DNA of 52,224 bases from a virus: the IMG/VR virus record IMGVR_UViG_3300032242_000862, positions 1-52,224 of that record. The stretch is one strand, 5' to 3'. Of the stretch, positions 1 to 26,551 are shown piece after piece; the stretch's first letter is position 1, and every line of letters starts with the position of its first letter. The translations under genes and the position numbers were made by a program. The notes under the pieces are model-generated. The model searched no databases, was not told where the DNA came from, and saw only the letters and a program-made list of their open reading frames with translations.

Positions 1-123
1 GTACTACGAGCGGATTGCACCGCTGAGTTCAACCAACCAAACCAACTGGCTGACACAAAACGCACCGAACGCCATGTTGTTCGGAACCTTGTTGCAGGCG
101 ATGCCGTTCCTGAAAAATGACCA
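1..123. repeat. terminal direct repeat, left copy
   Basis: These bases are identical to 52102-52224. An open reading frame (the adaptor) continues in frame across the joined ends, so the repeat is the overlap of a circular or circularly permuted genome and not a second gene copy. Whether the virion DNA is headful-packaged or has fixed ends cannot be told from this. Confidence 0.95.
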
Positions 124-1449: not shown

Positions 1450-3467
1450 TGACGGCAAAAGTTATCGCACTACAGGTTGGAGCAGGCATCCAGCGGGATG
1501 GGACTCAGTTCGCATCTGGCACCTATGTAGACGGTAGATGGGTTCGCTTTCAGTATGGCCGTCCACGCAAGATTGGCGGGTACAACGGTGCGTTCTTGAA
1601 TGCTGCAGGCGCAAGTCGCGGCATGATCATGAGCGCACAGGACAACATCAACTACGTGATCTCTGGTTACAGCGATGGTCTCCAGCAGTGGACCACTGAC
1701 AGTGATGATGCAGTCGGTTTTGGACCAACCTCAATTGAGCCAGTTGGCTCTGTGTCGTCCATCACGACGACAGTTCAGGGCTCCGGATACACCAATGGAA
1801 CCTACACCAGCGTGCCGATCAATTCGGCAGCAGGATCTGGTTGCTTGGCCACTGTCATTGTTACGAGCAACCTTGTTTCCAGCGTTGCAATCACTGCTGG
1901 CGGTAGCGGTTACATCCACAATGCGGCAGTGACGATCAGTTCGGCCAGCATCGGTGGAACTGGCTCAGGCTTTGCCGGGTATGTTGCATCCCTGACAACA
2001 TTCAATCCCAACCCCAATACTTTGTGGCAGTTTGACATTGGTTACGACGCTTTGGGAAATGGCCAGAACAACCTGATTGCACACCCCGGCCAAAACCTAA
2101 ACGACATTTCCTCTACGGTTAACACACGGCCTCTGTTTGGCCCCTTTACAGGCCTTTCCTTGAGCCCTGTAGGCGTGTTTACGGCCACTGGTACCACCAC
2201 CAGCGGATCACCCACTGTGACCTTTGCGGCGACCAACGTTGCAATGGGTGCTGGCGTGAGCGTGAGCGGCCCCGGCATCCCAGCCAACACCACGATTGTG
2301 TCGGCTTTGATCGTTGCTGGTGTGTGGACCGTAACCCTGAGCAACAATGCAACAGCATCGGCCACTGTTTCATTGGTCTTTGACAACAACATCTCCGTGT
2401 CTGGCGGTGTTGTGATGCTGTTCCCGTACCTGTTTGTGTACGGCAACAACGGCTTGATTCAGAACTGCTCTGCTGGTGACTTCAGCAACTGGACATCGGC
2501 TGACTCAAACGCCAACAACGTGTCGTCCACCAAGGTGGTGAAGGGCCTGCCAGTTCGTGGCGGAACGACATCGCCTGCTGGCATTTTCTGGACACTGGAC
2601 TCGGTGGTGCGTGTGACGTACTCACCAACCACTGTGGGGAATCAGACCTTCTACTGGAAGTATGACCTGATCTCCCAGCAGTCATCCATCATGTCCAGCC
2701 AGTGCGTCATTGAGTATGACGGTATCTTCTATTGGGTGGGTACGGATCGATTCCTAAGCTACAACGGTGTCGTTCAGGAAGTCCCGAACACTCAGAACAA
2801 CAACTACTTCTTCGACAACTTGAACTATGCCCAGCGTCAAAAGGTCTGGGTGAGTAAGGTGCCACGTTGGGGTGAGATCTGGTGGTTCTTCCCTTCAGGC
2901 GACAGCACTGAGTGCAACGATGCCATCATTTACAACGTGCGTGAAAAGAACTGGTACGACGCAGGCAAGGCAATGGGTGCCCGTCGCTCTGCAGGTGTGT
3001 TCTCTGAAGTGTTCCAACGCCCGATCTGGGGCGGCAATGAGCAGAACACCACGGGAAGCTACACTTTGTGGCAGCATGAGAAGGGCAACAACTCGGTCTA
3101 CACCAACTACGTCAATGCCATTGAGTCCTACTTTGAAACCAACGTGATCGGCAGTCAGGCTGGCTTGATTGGATCAACTCAGCAAAGTGCCCAAAACCTC
3201 TGGACCCGCATCGAACGTATTGAGCCTGACTTCATTCAAAACGGTGACATGCAAGTCGTGATCACGGGCAAGTCCTATGCTGAAGACGTGGACGATCCTT
3301 CAGACCCTTACACGTTTGATGGAACCACACTCAAGATTGACATGAAAGAGCAGCGTCGTGAGATGCGTTTGCGTTTCATCAGCAACACCCAGAACGGTGA
3401 CTACTTCATGGGACGAATCCTGTTGAGTCTTGACACTGGCGACGTTCGCGGGACAGGGAATCCGTAA
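1449..3467 (+). CDS. gp10-like packaged-DNA stabilisation / tail hub protein
   Basis: A 672-residue protein starting at ATG 1449, overlapping the previous stop (ATGA); a TTG two residues earlier is less likely. The N-terminus with DGTQFASGTYVDGRWVRFQY and KIGGY matches the phage stabilisation proteins related to P22 gp10, which plug the portal channel and build the short tail. The C-terminal half has the beta-propeller-like signatures EYDGIFYWVGTDRFLSYNG and VPRWGEIWWFFP. Two low-complexity beta modules are inserted in the first half: one with GSGYTNGTY and GGSGY near residues 110-170, and one with SGSPTVTF and GPGIPANTTI near residues 250-310. Such modules are common as swappable decorations. 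Its neighbour upstream is the adaptor, as expected for a head-closure block. Confidence 0.75.
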   Translation: MTAKVIALQVGAGIQRDGTQFASGTYVDGRWVRFQYGRPRKIGGYNGAFLNAAGASRGMIMSAQDNINYVISGYSDGLQQWTTDSDDAVGFGPTSIEPVGSVSSITTTVQGSGYTNGTYTSVPINSAAGSGCLATVIVTSNLVSSVAITAGGSGYIHNAAVTISSASIGGTGSGFAGYVASLTTFNPNPNTLWQFDIGYDALGNGQNNLIAHPGQNLNDISSTVNTRPLFGPFTGLSLSPVGVFTATGTTTSGSPTVTFAATNVAMGAGVSVSGPGIPANTTIVSALIVAGVWTVTLSNNATASATVSLVFDNNISVSGGVVMLFPYLFVYGNNGLIQNCSAGDFSNWTSADSNANNVSSTKVVKGLPVRGGTTSPAGIFWTLDSVVRVTYSPTTVGNQTFYWKYDLISQQSSIMSSQCVIEYDGIFYWVGTDRFLSYNGVVQEVPNTQNNNYFFDNLNYAQRQKVWVSKVPRWGEIWWFFPSGDSTECNDAIIYNVREKNWYDAGKAMGARRSAGVFSEVFQRPIWGGNEQNTTGSYTLWQHEKGNNSVYTNYVNAIESYFETNVIGSQAGLIGSTQQSAQNLWTRIERIEPDFIQNGDMQVVITGKSYAEDVDDPSDPYTFDGTTLKIDMKEQRREMRLRFISNTQNGDYFMGRILLSLDTGDVRGTGNP

Positions 3468-13246: not shown

Positions 13247-14062
13247 ATGAGAAATGTAAAACTGAACGACATCAGGATCGACGGCGGCACCCAATGCCGT
13301 GTTGAGATCGACCAAGCGCTGATCTATCACTACGTAGATTGCATGAAAAAAGGAGACGTGTTTCCATTGATGGAGACTACATTTGATGGATCAACATATT
13401 GGTTAAACGAAGGCTTTCACCGTTATCACGCTTACAAATTGTTGGGTCTCAAAACCGTTGAAATTTTTTACAAGCCGGGCACCCTACAAGATGCAATCCT
13501 TGCGGCTTTGAAAGCAAACAGCAAGCACGGCAAAAACTTGACCATCGCTGACAAAGAAAACAAGGTCAAGATGGCTTTGGCCATCGAGGGCTACGACCAA
13601 AAGTCGGACTACGAAATTGCCAAGATCTGTGACTTGTCGCAGTCATTCGTGGCTGGTGTTCGCAGCCCTGAAAAGAAGGAAAAACAGCGTCAAGCCAAAG
13701 AGAAAAACATCCAGAAACAGGCCGAAAAGCTCAAGGCCGAGAAGCAGGCAAATACTAGTCAGACTAGTAGTGAAAATACAACACCAAGGGAAAACACTGA
13801 TAAAAATGTAGGTTTTGAGCCGTCCAAAGAAGAGTTGGCAGCGAACGAACTGGCCATGCAGGCTGACATGGAGATGCTTTACAAACTGCTGGAAACCGAC
13901 GAGCCACTGAAGTTGGCGCATGAAGAGATAACTCGTTTGAATCTGCGTGTGGCGCAACTTGAGACACGGTTGTCTTCATTGATGACTGAGAAAAACGAAG
14001 CAGTCAAAGATGCCAAACGTGCGCAAGCACAACTGGACAAAATCAAGAAAGCCAAAAAATGA
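13247..14062 (+). CDS. ParB-like DNA-binding protein, orphan
   Basis: A 271-residue protein. The N-terminal domain starts at the first residues (KLNDIRIDGG) and has EGFHRYHAYKLLG near residues 54-66, where ParB proteins carry their conserved Arg-rich nucleotide-binding box. A helix-turn-helix follows (SDYEIAKICDLSQSFVAGVR, about 120-139). Then comes a basic Lys/Gln/Glu helix, a Ser/Thr linker (encoded by the 17-base palindrome), and a C-terminal coiled coil (about 215-271) that could dimerise. No ParA ATPase is found anywhere in the window. Phage ParB-like proteins act as regulators, partition proteins or nucleases; which applies here is open. It overlaps the helicase start by 4 bases. Confidence 0.75.
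   Translation: MRNVKLNDIRIDGGTQCRVEIDQALIYHYVDCMKKGDVFPLMETTFDGSTYWLNEGFHRYHAYKLLGLKTVEIFYKPGTLQDAILAALKANSKHGKNLTIADKENKVKMALAIEGYDQKSDYEIAKICDLSQSFVAGVRSPEKKEKQRQAKEKNIQKQAEKLKAEKQANTSQTSSENTTPRENTDKNVGFEPSKEELAANELAMQADMEMLYKLLETDEPLKLAHEEITRLNLRVAQLETRLSSLMTEKNEAVKDAKRAQAQLDKIKKAKK
13753..13769 (+). repeat. 17-base palindrome, copy 1 (inside the ParB-like gene)
   Basis: TACTAGTCAGACTAGTA: two 8-base arms around one central base. Exact copies (allowing the central A/T by strand) lie at 26557-26573 and 34177-34193. Here it encodes NTSQTS in the linker after the HTH region. It is a candidate binding site for the protein it lies within. Confidence 0.9.
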
Positions 14063-15582
14063 ACAAAGACCTAGCGCCAAGTGAGCGTGATGATGGATTC
14101 CCTGCCCCACGACCTTTTCAAATTACCGCTCACAATTCCCTTCGCCAAGGGTTTCGTGACGGCCACAAGAACCAACTGATCATGGCCCCCACGGGGGCTG
14201 GGAAGACTTACCTTGGCCTGCGCATCTGCCGCGAGGCCATGCAAAAGGGCAAGCGTGCGGTGTTTCTGTGTGACCGCACCACTTTGATCAACCAGACCTC
14301 TGAAGCTGCCGACGGTTATGGCTTGAACAATCATGGTGTGATCCAAGCCAATCATCAGCGACGCAGGCCAGATGAGTTGCTGCAGATTGCATCGGCCCAA
14401 ACCATAGCCAAACGTGGCTACTGGCCCAAGCTCGACGTTCTTGTGGTCGACGAAGCCCACACACAGATGAAGGTATGGACTGAATACGCAATGAACAGTG
14501 GTGCGGCTGTAATTGGTTTATCAGCTACGCCATTCAGCGTTGGCCTTGGCAAGATCTTCAGCAACCTGATCAACGCCACCACCATGCACGATTTGACTCA
14601 GTCAGGCGTGTTGGTGCCCATGCGGATCTTTTCTTGTACCAAGCCCGACATGCGCGGAGCCGCTACCTCTGGTGGTGAGTGGACAGAAAAGGCCGCAGAA
14701 GAGCGTGGCTTGGAAATCATTGGTGACGTTGTCAATGAGTGGTTGAAATTCGGCGACAACCGCAAAACCATTGTCTTCGGAGCCACCATCAAGCATTGCG
14801 AGGAAATCGCCAAGCAGTTCATCAATCAAGGCGTGATGGCCGCTGTGTTTACCTCCGAAACCACTCCCAAAGAACGTCAGAACCTATTGGACGAGTACCG
14901 CAAACCCAATGGATACTTGAAGGTCCTGATCAGTGTCGAGGCCCTTGCCAAGGGCTTTGATGTGCCTGACGTGGGCTGTATCTGCGATGCACGGCCACTG
15001 CGCAAGTCATTGAGCACGGCCATCCAGATGTGGGGGCGTGGCCTACGGTCGTCGCCTGACACGGGTAAAAAAGATTGTTACCTGCTGGACTTCAGCGGCA
15101 ACATCGTTCGGTTTGCAGAGGACTTCACTGAGGTGTTTTTCAACGGCCTTGACTCGCTGGATGCGGGGGACAAGCTGGACAAAAACATTCGCAAGGATGA
15201 AGACTACGAAGTGCGTGGATGCCCTAAATGTGGGTTCAAGCCATTTGTGAAGCGATGCATGGCTTGTGGTCACGAAAAGATGGCTGCGCCCCGTGTTGAG
15301 GCATTGCCCGGCCACATGCAGGAGATCTTTATTGGTGAGGGCAAAAATAAGAAGAAGCTGGCCGACAACTCTGAGCACCTGTGGCATCAGTTGGTCACCT
15401 ACGCTCGGATTCACTCCAAGCCTGAGACCCAGCAGGGCCGGGCGTATCACCTGTTCAAGAAGATCACGGGCCAAGACCCAATGTGGCGATTCACCACCGC
15501 ACCCACTGTTGAGATTAACCGCGCAGTTTTGGGCAAAATCACACAGATGAACATGGCTTGGAAGAAGGGGACACAGCGATGA
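14059..15582 (+). CDS. superfamily 2 DEAH-type helicase with zinc finger
   Basis: A 507-residue protein. Motif I APTGAGKT lies near residues 42-49, motif II DEAH near 130, motif III SAT near 155, and motif VI QMWGRGLRS near 322. A four-cysteine cluster (CPKCGF...CMACGH) follows near residues 388-403, a likely zinc finger for DNA binding. Such helicases are common in phages and may remodel forks or recombination intermediates. It lies between the ParB-like protein and the primase, overlapping both by a few bases, so the three form a replication unit. No hexameric replicative helicase is present. Confidence 0.9.
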   Translation: MNKDLAPSERDDGFPAPRPFQITAHNSLRQGFRDGHKNQLIMAPTGAGKTYLGLRICREAMQKGKRAVFLCDRTTLINQTSEAADGYGLNNHGVIQANHQRRRPDELLQIASAQTIAKRGYWPKLDVLVVDEAHTQMKVWTEYAMNSGAAVIGLSATPFSVGLGKIFSNLINATTMHDLTQSGVLVPMRIFSCTKPDMRGAATSGGEWTEKAAEERGLEIIGDVVNEWLKFGDNRKTIVFGATIKHCEEIAKQFINQGVMAAVFTSETTPKERQNLLDEYRKPNGYLKVLISVEALAKGFDVPDVGCICDARPLRKSLSTAIQMWGRGLRSSPDTGKKDCYLLDFSGNIVRFAEDFTEVFFNGLDSLDAGDKLDKNIRKDEDYEVRGCPKCGFKPFVKRCMACGHEKMAAPRVEALPGHMQEIFIGEGKNKKKLADNSEHLWHQLVTYARIHSKPETQQGRAYHLFKKITGQDPMWRFTTAPTVEINRAVLGKITQMNMAWKKGTQR

Positions 15583-16454
15583 ACTTCATTGACTTTGCAA
15601 GGGTCCATGGTGTGGCCATCGATCCCAACCGCCTGTATGCGTCTGAACGGATCAAGCGGTGCGGTACGGTCGAGAAGCCAAACTCAGGCAACGGGGCCTA
15701 CTTCTGGGACGGTTCCCGTGGCTGGGTCATGGATTGGTCAGGAGAGGCCAGAGTCATCTGGTTTGAAGATCCCCATGCAAAACCATGGACTGACGAAGAA
15801 AAGCGTTTGTGGGCCGCAAAAAGGGCTTCTGCGGCCACTGAACAGCAACGCCAGTACGAACAGGCAGCACTGCAGGCCGACATCACCCTGCGGTCGGCAA
15901 CGCTGGACAACCATGCCTACCTCGAGATCAAAGGGTTTCCCGAGACCCGTGGGCTGGTGCTGGAGGACAAATTGTTGATCCCCATGCGCAACGTGGTGAG
16001 CAACAAGCTGCAGGGCTACCAGTTGATCTGGTGGAACATGCCAGAGCGCAAGTACGAGAAGAAAATGCTGCACGGCATGCGTGCCAAAAATGCAGTGTTG
16101 TTTTTAGGCTCTAGGGATTTACCCGAATGCTGGCTTGTGGAGGGTTTTGCAACGGGTTTGTCGGTGCGTGACGCCCTGCGCAGTGTGGGTTTGCCTGCAT
16201 CTGTGGTGGTGTGTTTCTCGGCGTCGAACCTTGCGGCAGTGGCCGATCAGATCAAAGGCAAACGGTACATTTTTGCGGACAACGACGAGTCGAAGACGGG
16301 AGAAAAGACTGCGATGCAAACTGGTTTGCCTTGGACGATGGCCGACACTGTGGGCTGGGATGCGAACGACCTGCACCTGAAGGACAGTTTATTTGCAGTG
16401 GTTGAAAAGATCATGCAATTGCGCAAGCGAGAGTTAATTTACACAGAAACTTAG
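15579..16454 (+). CDS. Toprim-domain DNA primase-like protein
   Basis: A 291-residue protein from ATG 15579, which overlaps the helicase stop (ATGA). The N-terminal part (IKRCGTVEKPNSGNGAYFWD, GWVMDWSGEA) matches phage and plasmid primase-like proteins. The Toprim core shows the catalytic Glu in WLVEGFATGLS (about 185-195) and the acidic DND motif in IFADNDES (about 232-239). It lacks a clear CHC2 zinc finger at the N-terminus and has no fused helicase. It probably primes DNA synthesis for the host polymerase, since no phage polymerase gene is seen. Confidence 0.8.
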   Translation: MNFIDFARVHGVAIDPNRLYASERIKRCGTVEKPNSGNGAYFWDGSRGWVMDWSGEARVIWFEDPHAKPWTDEEKRLWAAKRASAATEQQRQYEQAALQADITLRSATLDNHAYLEIKGFPETRGLVLEDKLLIPMRNVVSNKLQGYQLIWWNMPERKYEKKMLHGMRAKNAVLFLGSRDLPECWLVEGFATGLSVRDALRSVGLPASVVVCFSASNLAAVADQIKGKRYIFADNDESKTGEKTAMQTGLPWTMADTVGWDANDLHLKDSLFAVVEKIMQLRKRELIYTET

Positions 16455-16459
16455 GGGTA

Positions 16460-16489
16460 TTGACGCCCCTTGATATGTCTTGATAAAAT
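16460..16489 (+). promoter_or_regulatory. sigma-70 promoter of the structured RNA
   Basis: TTGACG (16460-16465), 18 bases, TAAAAT (16484-16489). Each box matches the consensus at 5 of 6 bases. The expected start is near 16496, exactly before the first hairpin. The -35 starts 5 bases after the primase stop. Confidence 0.65.
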
Positions 16490-16495
16490 TTGCGC

Positions 16496-16882
16496 AACAC
16501 CGGGCTTGGAACATCCGGTGGTAAAGCTGTTAAGTCAGACCCTGACCCCGCATGGGGTAGTCACCCTTTTTGGGTGGTGTTCCACGGGGTCTGTCTTAAC
16601 AGCTTTTTTGCTTTCTGTTCCCGTACTCCGCACGATAGCAAGCACCCCAGTCGTGGTGGCGCGGAAGGAAAGCGTAGCTGGTATGACTTCGGTCTAGGGG
16701 GCAGTTCCCGAATAATCCAGTCGGCTGGTCGAATCATCAAGCCGAGGGGTAGAACGTAAAACCGTTCACATGATGATCCCGTTCGCGGGGGTGAAGCACC
16801 TTCCCTCTCTACCTCTTCAGTGGGGTAGGGGGGTCTTTGGGTGAAAATTATTAAGAGGGGGAAAGGCCCCCCAACTTTTTTT
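16496..16882 (+). ncRNA. candidate ~385-nt structured non-coding RNA, unknown class
   Basis: This is the longest stretch without a convincing gene (16455-16944), and it has a promoter before it and a terminator at its end. Visible helices: 16498-16503/16515-16520 (6 bp), whose 11-base loop contains TGGAACA, complementary to TGTTCCA at 16578-16584; 16523-16542/16587-16606 (19 of 20 positions paired), enclosing 5-bp hairpins at 16545-16558 and 16562-16576; 16721-16726/16740-16745 (6 bp), whose loop ATCATCA is complementary to TGATGAT at 16771-16777; 16752-16756/16763-16767; a UUCG-loop hairpin at 16778-16789; and a 12-bp helix 16804-16815/16822-16833. Two loop-to-strand pairings suggest pseudoknots and a compact fold. 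It is not tmRNA, RNase P RNA, 6S or a tRNA by sequence. GOLLD or ROOL are the phage RNA classes I would compare first, without claiming a match. Confidence 0.7.
16857..16882 (+). terminator. rho-independent terminator of the structured RNA
   Basis: GGGGG (16857-16861), a short loop, CCCCC(C) (16867-16872), AAC and seven T (16876-16882). It ends the structured RNA and separates it from the next promoter. Confidence 0.75.
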
Positions 16883-16909
16883 GCTCAGACTCTAATTTCG
16901 TGTTATAGT
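16881..16909 (+). promoter_or_regulatory. early promoter with shared operator-like motif (second copy)
   Basis: TCTAATTTCGTGTTATAGTG at 16891-16910 contains a TATAGT -10 (16904-16909) with TG one base upstream. The -35 (TTGCTC, 16881-16886, 17-base spacer) is weak. It overlaps the U-run of the terminator and drives the gene at 16945 and those after it. Confidence 0.6.
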
Positions 16910-16944
16910 GTCTCCACCACAATGAGTGGGTTACAGGAGAAACG

Positions 16945-17328
16945 ATGACCACGTACACACATTGGGATGTGATGTTGGCAAGCCCGACAGATCCCCTGCC
17001 TGAGAAGAAACGCCAGTACCAAATGAACCTGATGCGCAATGCATTGGAGAACTGCAAGACCAAGCCTGAAGTGATGGACATTGCAGCCTTGGCGACCGCT
17101 GTCGACCTGATGGACACTCTGCGCGAGATGGGGCATCTGGAAGACGCTGACAACGCCTTGGAGGACGCAATGACCGCCTTGATGCATGACACCTTCAACG
17201 ACCTCGAGATACGCCTGTTTGAGGGCATCCTCGAGGACTATGAGATGGCTATGAACAACATCCCAGCACGGATCATGATCATGGCCCACCGAGCCACCGA
17301 AAAACGCATTGAAAGGATAGCAGCATGA
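16945..17328 (+). CDS. helical acidic protein, unknown function
   Basis: A 127-residue protein with an AGGAG site, first gene after the second copy of the shared promoter. It is mostly helical and acidic (MDIAALATAVDLMDTLREMG, LEDADNALEDAMTALM). No motif is recognised. It overlaps the next gene by 4 bases. As the first gene of an early operon it may be highly expressed. Confidence 0.7.
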   Translation: MTTYTHWDVMLASPTDPLPEKKRQYQMNLMRNALENCKTKPEVMDIAALATAVDLMDTLREMGHLEDADNALEDAMTALMHDTFNDLEIRLFEGILEDYEMAMNNIPARIMIMAHRATEKRIERIAA

Positions 17329-24766: not shown

Positions 24767-25118
24767 TAAGGGGGCAGGAAGGCCTGCAGGAAGCCCAAAT
24801 AAGGCCACAACAGAGGCAAGGCAGGCCATAGCCTCATTTGTCAATGGAAACGCTCACAGGCTCACTGAGTGGCTCGATCAGGTAGCAGGTGGTGTGAAGG
24901 CCATCGATGAGGAGACGGGCGAAGAGCGGTACGTGGTCCCACCGAACCCAGCCAAGGCCTTTGACATGTTCCAGTCGGTGGTGGAGTACCACGTGCCCAA
25001 GCTGGCACGCATGGAGCACACGGGCAGTGACAACCAACCGTTGGTGATCGAGCATAACGTCAATGTGTTCGGGGAACTGCTCAAGAACATCAAGATGAAG
25101 CGGCAGACAGAGGGATGA
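24753..25118 (+). CDS. terminase small subunit
   Basis: A 121-residue protein from ATG 24753, with a perfect GGAGGTG site 3 bases upstream; a TTG at 24741 lies inside that site and is rejected. MATGNKGAGRPAGSPNKATT is the basic start typical of one family of small terminases, followed by a helical body and the end FGELLKNIKMKRQ. It would recognise the packaging site and load the large subunit, whose gene overlaps it by 4 bases. Confidence 0.75.
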   Translation: MATGNKGAGRPAGSPNKATTEARQAIASFVNGNAHRLTEWLDQVAGGVKAIDEETGEERYVVPPNPAKAFDMFQSVVEYHVPKLARMEHTGSDNQPLVIEHNVNVFGELLKNIKMKRQTEG

Positions 25119-26551
25119 GCGTAGCAGCGGCCATCCTCGAGGACGATGAACTCCTGCAGGCCGAGTTTGCCAAGCTGTCTCCCGTCGATCAGGCTGTCAC
25201 CAACTGGCAATTGAGTTGGCTGCAGATACAGGCCCATAAGCACCAGATTGAGCCGCCGGGCAACTGGTGGAACATTTGGCTCATGCTGGCTGGCCGTGGA
25301 GCAGGCAAGACTCGAGCGGCATCTGAGACGCTGGCCGCATGGGCATGGGAGCAGCCGGGCACCAGATGGCTCGTCAGCGCCCCAACGAGCGGTGACTTGA
25401 AAGGCACATGCTTTGAGGGTGACTCAGGGCTGCTAAAGGTCATTCCGTCCATCCTGATCGAGAAGTACAACTCGAGCCTGCATGAGATACACCTGATCAA
25501 TGGCTCATTCATCAAGGGCATCCCCGCCAGTGAGCCTGAGCGGTTCCGGGGGCCACAGTTCCACGGTGGGTGGCTGGATGAGTTGGCCGCATGGGAATAC
25601 CTGCGCGACTCGTGGGACATGATTCAGTTCGGCATCCGTCTTGGCCAACGGACCAAGCTGATCTGCTCGACGACACCCAAGCCCAAAGAAGTGATCATGG
25701 AGTTGATCGAGCGTGAGGGGGACGACGTGGCCATCACCCGCGCCAGCACGTACTCCAACATCAAAAACTTGGCCCCATCGTTCCAAAAGCAGATCCTGCA
25801 GTACGAGGGCACCAACCTTGGCCGTCAGGAGATCCATGCGGAGATCATTGACCCAGAAGAGGGCGGCATCGTCAAGCGCGACTGGTTCAGGCTCTGGCCC
25901 GACGGCAAGGCATTCCCTAAGCTGGAGTACATCATCCAGTCCTACGACTGCGCCACCAGCGACAAGACCGTCAACGACCCCACAGGATGCATCACGCTGG
26001 GCGTGTTCAAGCCTATGGACGGCGGCATGTGCGTCATGGTGCTGGACTGCTGGCAGGAGCACCTGCAGTACCCTGACTTGCGCCCCAAGGTGATCGACGA
26101 GTTCGAGACGGTCTACGGTGAGGGCCGGGCCAAGAAGCTGGTGGACCTGATCCTCGTGGAGGACAAGAGCGCAGGCATATCCCTCATTCAGGACTTGCAA
26201 CGTGCCCACCTGCCCGTGCATGCGTACAACCCCGGCAGGGCCGACAAGATCCAACGCCTGTCCATCGTGGCCAACATCATCAAGGCTGGCCGGGTGTGGG
26301 TGCCTGAGAGCAGCAAGCGCAAAGGCTTTGTACGTGATTGGGCCGAGGGCATGGTCAGCCAGATCTGCTCATTCCCTGAAGGGACCGCACACGATGAGTT
26401 TGTCGACTGCATCAGTCAGGGCCTGCGGTATCTGCGTGATGCAGGCTGGATCAGCATCGATGCCCCACCAAGGGACGACATCGAGCCCGAAGACATCAGC
26501 GACGCTGAGATCTTCAACATGAAGCACCGTGTCAATCCATATGGAGCATAA
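25115..26551 (+). CDS. terL: terminase large subunit
   Basis: A 478-residue protein of normal length. The ATPase has Walker A GRGAGKT (about residues 60-66) and Walker B GGWLDELAAW (about 150-160), and a coupling motif CSTTPKP. The RNase H-like nuclease has its acidic residues in SYDCATSDK (near 277), LVEDKSAG (near 347) and HDEFVD (near 426). It translocates DNA into the prohead and cuts it. The palindrome copy 2 begins 6 bases after its stop. Confidence 0.95.
   Translation: MSVAAAILEDDELLQAEFAKLSPVDQAVTNWQLSWLQIQAHKHQIEPPGNWWNIWLMLAGRGAGKTRAASETLAAWAWEQPGTRWLVSAPTSGDLKGTCFEGDSGLLKVIPSILIEKYNSSLHEIHLINGSFIKGIPASEPERFRGPQFHGGWLDELAAWEYLRDSWDMIQFGIRLGQRTKLICSTTPKPKEVIMELIEREGDDVAITRASTYSNIKNLAPSFQKQILQYEGTNLGRQEIHAEIIDPEEGGIVKRDWFRLWPDGKAFPKLEYIIQSYDCATSDKTVNDPTGCITLGVFKPMDGGMCVMVLDCWQEHLQYPDLRPKVIDEFETVYGEGRAKKLVDLILVEDKSAGISLIQDLQRAHLPVHAYNPGRADKIQRLSIVANIIKAGRVWVPESSKRKGFVRDWAEGMVSQICSFPEGTAHDEFVDCISQGLRYLRDAGWISIDAPPRDDIEPEDISDAEIFNMKHRVNPYGA

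Follow-up and report, generated by a model that had tools for sequence, protein, structure and literature searches.

Structured RNAs of large size for which no role is known are uncommon, and they tend to point to biology that matters. The HK022 put RNA and the EAR-type antitermination elements are promoter-proximal structured phage RNAs, beside which the 5' module (the leader) of the RNA described here can be set by position alone; the leader differs from them in ending in a terminator-like U-run and in preceding an RNA rather than an operon. ROOL is longer than the present RNA and is a different family, to which the latter gives no Rfam match. GOLLD resembles it in being a large RNA of phages and prophages, but many GOLLD members exceed 800 nt and are distinct in sequence, whereas the RNA described here has no Rfam match and only a weak link to tRNA islands. 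ROOL has been described as a phage-borne RNA with multiple pseudoknots and no known protein partner that is often found near tRNA islands, and GOLLD as possessing a variable linker that sometimes holds tRNAs (PMC12286853). RF02932 is a structured RNA without an assigned role that shares with our RNA the slot after a phage primase; its Rfam model covers only 120 nt of a block that continues downstream, and includes no leader. In the open-access literature searched, we found no description of the RNA presented here, which we term class A, or of the leader it shares with other RNAs.

The window, that is the whole stretch of 52,224 nt analysed here (IMG/VR record IMGVR_UViG_3300032242_000862), is a 52 kb virus whose genes include those for the terminase large subunit (25115-26551), portal and spanin. 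A DEAD-type helicase gene (14059-15582) is followed by a TOPRIM primase-like gene (15558-16454), and directly 3' of the latter is what, judged from its sequence, is the gene for a structured non-coding phage RNA of about 387-390 nt (16496-16882; plus strand, as are its promoter, terminator, helices and pseudoknots given below). We regard it as nearly certain that this is a new structured RNA family built as a leader followed by a core; the full explanation, namely a structured, non-coding phage RNA of this build that most likely acts in trans, appears highly probable. Covariance-model searches of the region against Rfam, GOLLD and ROOL included, recovered no match at the gathering threshold and only chance matches up to E=10, and ARAGORN detected neither a tRNA nor a tmRNA in it. 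This agrees with the original prediction that the RNA is not a tmRNA, RNase P RNA, 6S RNA or tRNA, and is consistent with a class outside the catalogue. The layouts of group I introns, tmRNA and RNase P, compared by eye, did not fit; HEARO and the IscB omega RNA had no Rfam match in the window; and RF02932 gave 0 matches at the gathering score and none at E<=10 for the window core.

The gene is flanked by the two signals that had been read at its ends: a sigma-70-like promoter (TTGACG-18-TAAAAT, 16460-16489) with a TG before the -10 element, from which a start is expected near 16496, and an intrinsic terminator (GGGGG-AAAGG-CCCCC followed by T7, 16857-16880), where the transcript is expected to end at about 16880. 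The predicted fold of 16496-16884 has a minimum free energy of -164 kcal/mol (z = -4.0), and 0/100 dinucleotide shuffles were as low. Among homologues, a strict version of the promoter (TTGAC-17..19-TANNNT, sought in the 110 nt before the long leader hairpin P0b) lies 29-55 nt 5' of that hairpin in 41/103 leaders, as against 0.6% of shuffles. A clear T-run within 140 nt 3' of the core is seen in only 27/103 homologous cores, so that the RNA may belong to longer transcripts in other lineages. That it is an independent gene is therefore well supported for the window, which has its own promoter and terminator, and for its lineage, but not for every homologue.

The leader (16498-16609) comprises a small hairpin, a pseudoknot and a long hairpin with a U6 end. 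The small hairpin, P0a (16498-16520; stem 16498-16503/16515-16520), shows covariation in aligned leaders, and seven of its loop bases (16507-16513, UGGAACA) form the 5' strand of the pseudoknot PK0, whose 3' strand (16578-16584, UGUUCCA) belongs to the long hairpin, P0b (16523-16609), in whose apical region it occupies the 3' side. The P0b stem, 16523-16542/16587-16606, is the 20-position helix noted originally and is 95% complementary; the U6 end occupies 16604-16609, and in nearly all leaders the stem is followed at once by 5-8 T. PK0, which had been proposed as a 7-base loop-to-strand pairing, is present and covaries: the longest complementarity averages 7.5 nt in 103 distinct leaders, compared with 5.1 nt in swapped pairs whose loop and strand were drawn from different loci. 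In an alignment of 40 leaders that share the window's type, PK0 and the outer P0b helix together have 96.7% of their cells paired and 11/16 pairs covarying, with a covariation of 0.371 versus 0.159 in shuffled and at most 0.094 in slid controls; taken separately, the outer 9 pairs of P0b are 99.2% paired and PK0 is 93.5% paired. Given the leader's own terminator-like U6 end, two products are possible, one of ~115 nt and another of ~387 nt formed by read-through, and the core would need either such read-through or an undetected promoter. Host polymerase would start at about 16496, with part of it stopping at the U6 and the remainder reading through to the terminator at 16880.

A search of IMG/VR with the primase recovered 48 loci, of which more than 20 have DNA alignable to the RNA just 3' of the primase, while a scan for exact copies of GGGGGTCTTTGGGTGA, a string taken near the end of the RNA, recovered at least 119 IMG/VR stretches. 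A covariance model built from 38 sequences (R1) matches all the pattern hits that were tested, nearly all with E < 1e-20, as well as further loci found by other means; in the window it matches 16614-16852 with 266.5 bits, a segment that contains the class A core (16621-16844).

This core has ten helices and two pseudoknots (PK1 and PK2) and ends in the single-stranded UCUUUGGGUGA. The helices and pseudoknots were named from the sequences and then counted on alignments. P1 (16627-16631/16661-16665) and P2 (16643-16646/16655-16658) have 5/5 and 4/4 pairs covarying, respectively, in 90 distinct sequences, and PK1 joins the loop of P2 (16652-16654) to 16672-16674 (3/3 pairs covary, 98.4% paired); PK1 is a third pseudoknot, in addition to the two claimed originally. 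Within P3 (16677-16681/16717-16721; 4/5 pairs covary, 99.6% paired) are P4 (16682-16696), a UUCG hairpin (16685-16694), and P5 (16697-16699/16707-16709), which is part of the named-structure count on the 90 distinct sequences. P6 (16722-16726/16740-16744) corresponds to the helix originally given as 16721-16726/16740-16745, and shows covariation at 3/5 pairs with 99.8% pairing. Its loop (16733-16739) pairs with 16771-16777 to form PK2 (98.9% paired), the second of the predicted 7-base loop pairings, and the P7 hairpin (16750-16768; 6/6 pairs covary) sits between the two PK2 strands. PK2 covaries, with both-sided changes in 42/90 sequences at one pair and in 24 at the next; at one of its pairs the sequences have AU in 47 cases, UA in 21, GC in 19 and CG in a single one. 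P8 (16778-16781/16786-16789; 4/4 pairs covary) carries a UUCG loop, so that the predicted UUCG hairpins are found in P4 and P8 (16778-16789). P9 (16790-16792/16798-16800) varies on one side only, and P10, in which a pyrimidine strand (16804-16813) pairs with a purine strand (16824-16833), is 96.3% paired with mostly one-sided changes. It is followed by the near-invariant unpaired 3' motif UCUUUGGGUGA (16834-16844). Since loci were scanned with an exact 16-nt string from this motif, its invariance among them is partly due to the way in which they were chosen; members of the primase lineage, found independently of the string scan, also share it. The sole antisense target found for this motif in the phage genome was the RNA's own site.

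Over the 38 sequences, 96.6% of the cells in the named core helices and pseudoknots are paired, with a covariation of 0.353 against 0.156 in shuffled and at most 0.083 in slid controls. On 92 model-aligned sequences (90 distinct) the pairing is 96.5% and 42/60 named pairs show changes on both sides; the covariation in the 90 distinct sequences is 0.445, compared with 0.160 after shuffling and no more than 0.077 after sliding. The 92-sequence alignment was fitted to the nested helices by a model that lacks PK1 and PK2, and hence the pseudoknots constitute the fairer test: jointly they are 98.8% paired, and their covariation is 0.451, with 0.125 in shuffled and no more than 0.048 in slid controls. 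With insert-bearing sequences left in the alignment, RNAalifold gave a poor structure, and the named structure was used instead. Both helices and both loop pairings for which covariation in homologues had been proposed as the check passed it, which, together with the lack of an Rfam match, supports the prediction of a structured RNA gene of a class outside Rfam. Two frames of 75 and 89 codons (16470-16697 and 16490-16759) are open in the window and might point to a short coding sequence, the folding then being due to chance. Neither frame is conserved among 37 aligned homologues, which have in-frame stops in 16/37 cases and, for the longer frame, a net length change that is not a multiple of 3 in 24/37; codon-pattern conservation, sought as a refutation of the non-coding assignment, was absent. 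With covariation standing far above the shuffled and slid controls as well, we give practically no credence to there being no functional RNA here.

About 18 homologues have, in place of the small P4 hairpin, a helix of up to ~20 bp that bears a 70-160 nt domain (insert loci: L006, L034, L035, L053, L057, L060, L061, L062, L064, L065, L083, L096, L108, L127, L130, L145, L146, L183 and L229). A canonical tRNA T-arm sequence occurs in the insert of L060, L064 and L083, and a D-arm-like UAGCUCA in two of these; ARAGORN calls none of the P4 inserts a tRNA. A kissing contact between D-loop and T-loop (CUGA/UCAG) looked convincing by eye, but at 4.67 versus 4.55 it was no better than in swapped controls and hence is not claimed. 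An optional insert that is tRNA-like in a few homologues is reminiscent of the tRNAs in GOLLD linkers (PMC12286853), and the class A RNA is likewise phage-borne, large and rich in pseudoknots, with no protein partner nearby, all of which would suit assembly into an RNA-only multimer in the manner of GOLLD and ROOL. The absence of an Rfam match to either, the much shorter length and the presence of tRNA genes within 2.5 kb 5' in only 2/59 unique loci, with which an association of class A with tRNA islands was dropped, make such assembly rather unlikely. The window RNA may nevertheless work like GOLLD and ROOL, while being by the Rfam test a member of neither.

The homologues are nearly all metagenomic. 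An exact two-motif pattern, which divergent copies could escape, was absent from 84,980 bacterial and archaeal species genomes; BLAST recovered none from plasmids; and comparison with cultured phages by DNA similarity gave only a 53-nt match in MW202753, scoring 28.5 bits with R1, and a leader match in MW202545, both entries being metagenome-derived. The family accordingly looks viral, so far as the exact pattern used on the genomes can tell, and if its carriers are virulent phages, or phages that seldom integrate, its absence from prokaryote genomes would be accounted for. In both MW202753 (L002:2972-3403) and MW202545 (L170:2928-3155 and 3149-3385) the sequence of the leader and core RNA is overlain by annotated 'hypothetical proteins', which are probably spurious.

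A primase gene lies 5' of the class A RNA in 55/115 loci with enough sequence. Elsewhere the RNA is found beside and after the terminase large subunit (L117, L080 and L070) or near a different primase/helicase (L107), and the genes downstream vary in kind and direction. Sequence comparison indicates that the class A core passes among phages that are unrelated, and from one gene neighbourhood to another. Its occurrence in at least three gene contexts suggests that it most likely acts in trans, a reading that we consider probable. Were it instead a cis element controlling the downstream gene, such as an attenuator, a riboswitch or a processive antitermination element, the likeness of its promoter-proximal pseudoknot and terminator-like hairpin to an attenuator would be accounted for, as would the many homologues without a clear terminator after the core. 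However, in the window a terminator separates the RNA from the next gene (at 16945), the downstream genes differ by lineage with some lying on the other strand, and the core is far larger than needed, so we view cis control as unlikely. Still less likely is a replication element, i.e. a transcript serving as primer or regulator of phage DNA replication in the manner of ColE1 RNA II: the RNA directly follows the helicase and TOPRIM primase genes in the window lineage and its G-rich 3' end could favour an R-loop, but in other lineages its neighbour is the terminase, the G-run is not kept by the alternative cores found in its slot, and the conserved features are RNA pairs rather than DNA signals.

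In the primase-lineage loci that lack a class A core, its place behind the shared promoter and leader is taken by different RNA-like blocks. Scanning with two leader strings yielded 57 unique loci with enough sequence, whose cores, in a rough sorting by regular expressions, are 24 class A, 10 RF02932-type, 2 class C and 21 unsorted (20 readable); the unsorted loci hold at least three further recurring blocks. Weak matches to R1 (18-30 bits) in some of the other cores indicate that part of the core diversity is distant homology. The leader, on this evidence, is a shared platform to which different phages attach cores of different kinds, and the gene layout is a modular one, in a family of predicted pseudoknotted phage RNAs. 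The single RNA gene of the original prediction is borne out as a structured RNA, but one with two modules, leader and core, that recombine independently. This bears on whether there are in fact two RNAs, namely a self-sufficient leader of ~115 nt that has a promoter and a terminator of its own, and a core made by read-through or processing; so do loci L012 and L008, in which no recognisable core follows the leader, in support of the leader being a separate unit. The T-run directly behind the P0b stem is also in line with this. On the other hand, no promoter is seen between the U-run and the core, the gap there being just 11 nt in the window, and the position of the leader directly 5' of most cores suggests joint working; we therefore treat two RNAs as a serious possibility but not the favoured one.

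The RF02932 (Betaproteobacteria-1) core sits in the class A slot, preceded by the same types of promoter and leader, in L004, L022, L030, L170 and L191, and slot-sharing sister loci score 93-103 bits against RF02932. One of these loci, L170 (MW202545), has five tRNAs 5' of the leader and carries this core rather than class A. In the cultured Acidovorax phage AP1, RF02932 follows a homologous primase without the leader; being borne by a cultured phage, it makes the question of function testable at the bench. In the homologues of RF02932 the conserved block extends ~80-100 nt past the Rfam model, which is therefore probably truncated. Taken with close relatives, RF02932 was observed in the same slot of phages in L004, L005, L010, L011, L014, L021, L022, L028, L029, L041, L030, L170, L171 and L191.

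That entire cores are exchanged behind a single leader suggests a slot for effectors on which diversifying selection acts, and this swapping, along with a fold that is large and probably rigid and that exposes invariant loops, points to an effector RNA. For the trans-acting class A RNA, the core would fold into one compact knotted body on which the invariant loops CUGGUCGAAUCAUCA and GGGGCAGUU and the 3' UCUUUGGGUGA would form a binding surface, and the RNA, neither coding nor antisense, would occupy a host or phage macromolecule in host takeover or counter-defence. That it occupies a host machine or a defence factor is a tentative proposal, which we rate as possible but somewhat doubtful. On a slightly firmer, though still speculative, footing we propose that the locus might be an RNA cassette slot, in which a fixed promoter and pseudoknotted leader are followed by at least half a dozen RNA classes (class A, RF02932-type, and four or more without an Rfam match) swapped like anti-defence genes, class A being one effector of an RNA-based arsenal for host takeover or counter-defence in phages that are probably those of freshwater Betaproteobacteria. 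The class A RNA, with 42 covarying core pairs and three covarying pseudoknots including that of the leader, is common in uncultured viruses and has a size that cryo-EM can handle, and the shared leader links several orphan RNA classes, the Rfam orphan RF02932 among them.

Further recurring and apparently structured blocks without a match in Rfam were seen behind the same leader, namely class C (L003, L026, L047, L172), class D (L043, L044, L179), class E (L050, L185, L220, L230), class F (L025, L190, L194, L204), class G (L187, L193, L202, L206, L207, L217, L219, L237) and class H (L200, L209), each of them a potential new RNA family. Hairpins with the pattern GCCAACACGCATGGGGATTG...CCCCAGCCGTGTTGG are repeated between the primase and the leader in L003, L008, L012, L014, L017, L022, L028, L030, L039 and L170; the primase-leader gap of these loci also has an element GGGTTAGCGCC...CACTGCTTTATGTGAGC, which is found between leader and core as well in L056, L088, L089 and L143. 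These hairpins and this element are perhaps yet another small RNA family. Finally, CTCTAATTTCGTGTTATAGT, at 16890-16909 of the window, recurs as NATCTAATTNNATGTTAGACT 5' of the next gene in many relatives, and is probably a conserved phage or host promoter type that the sigma-70 scan missed.
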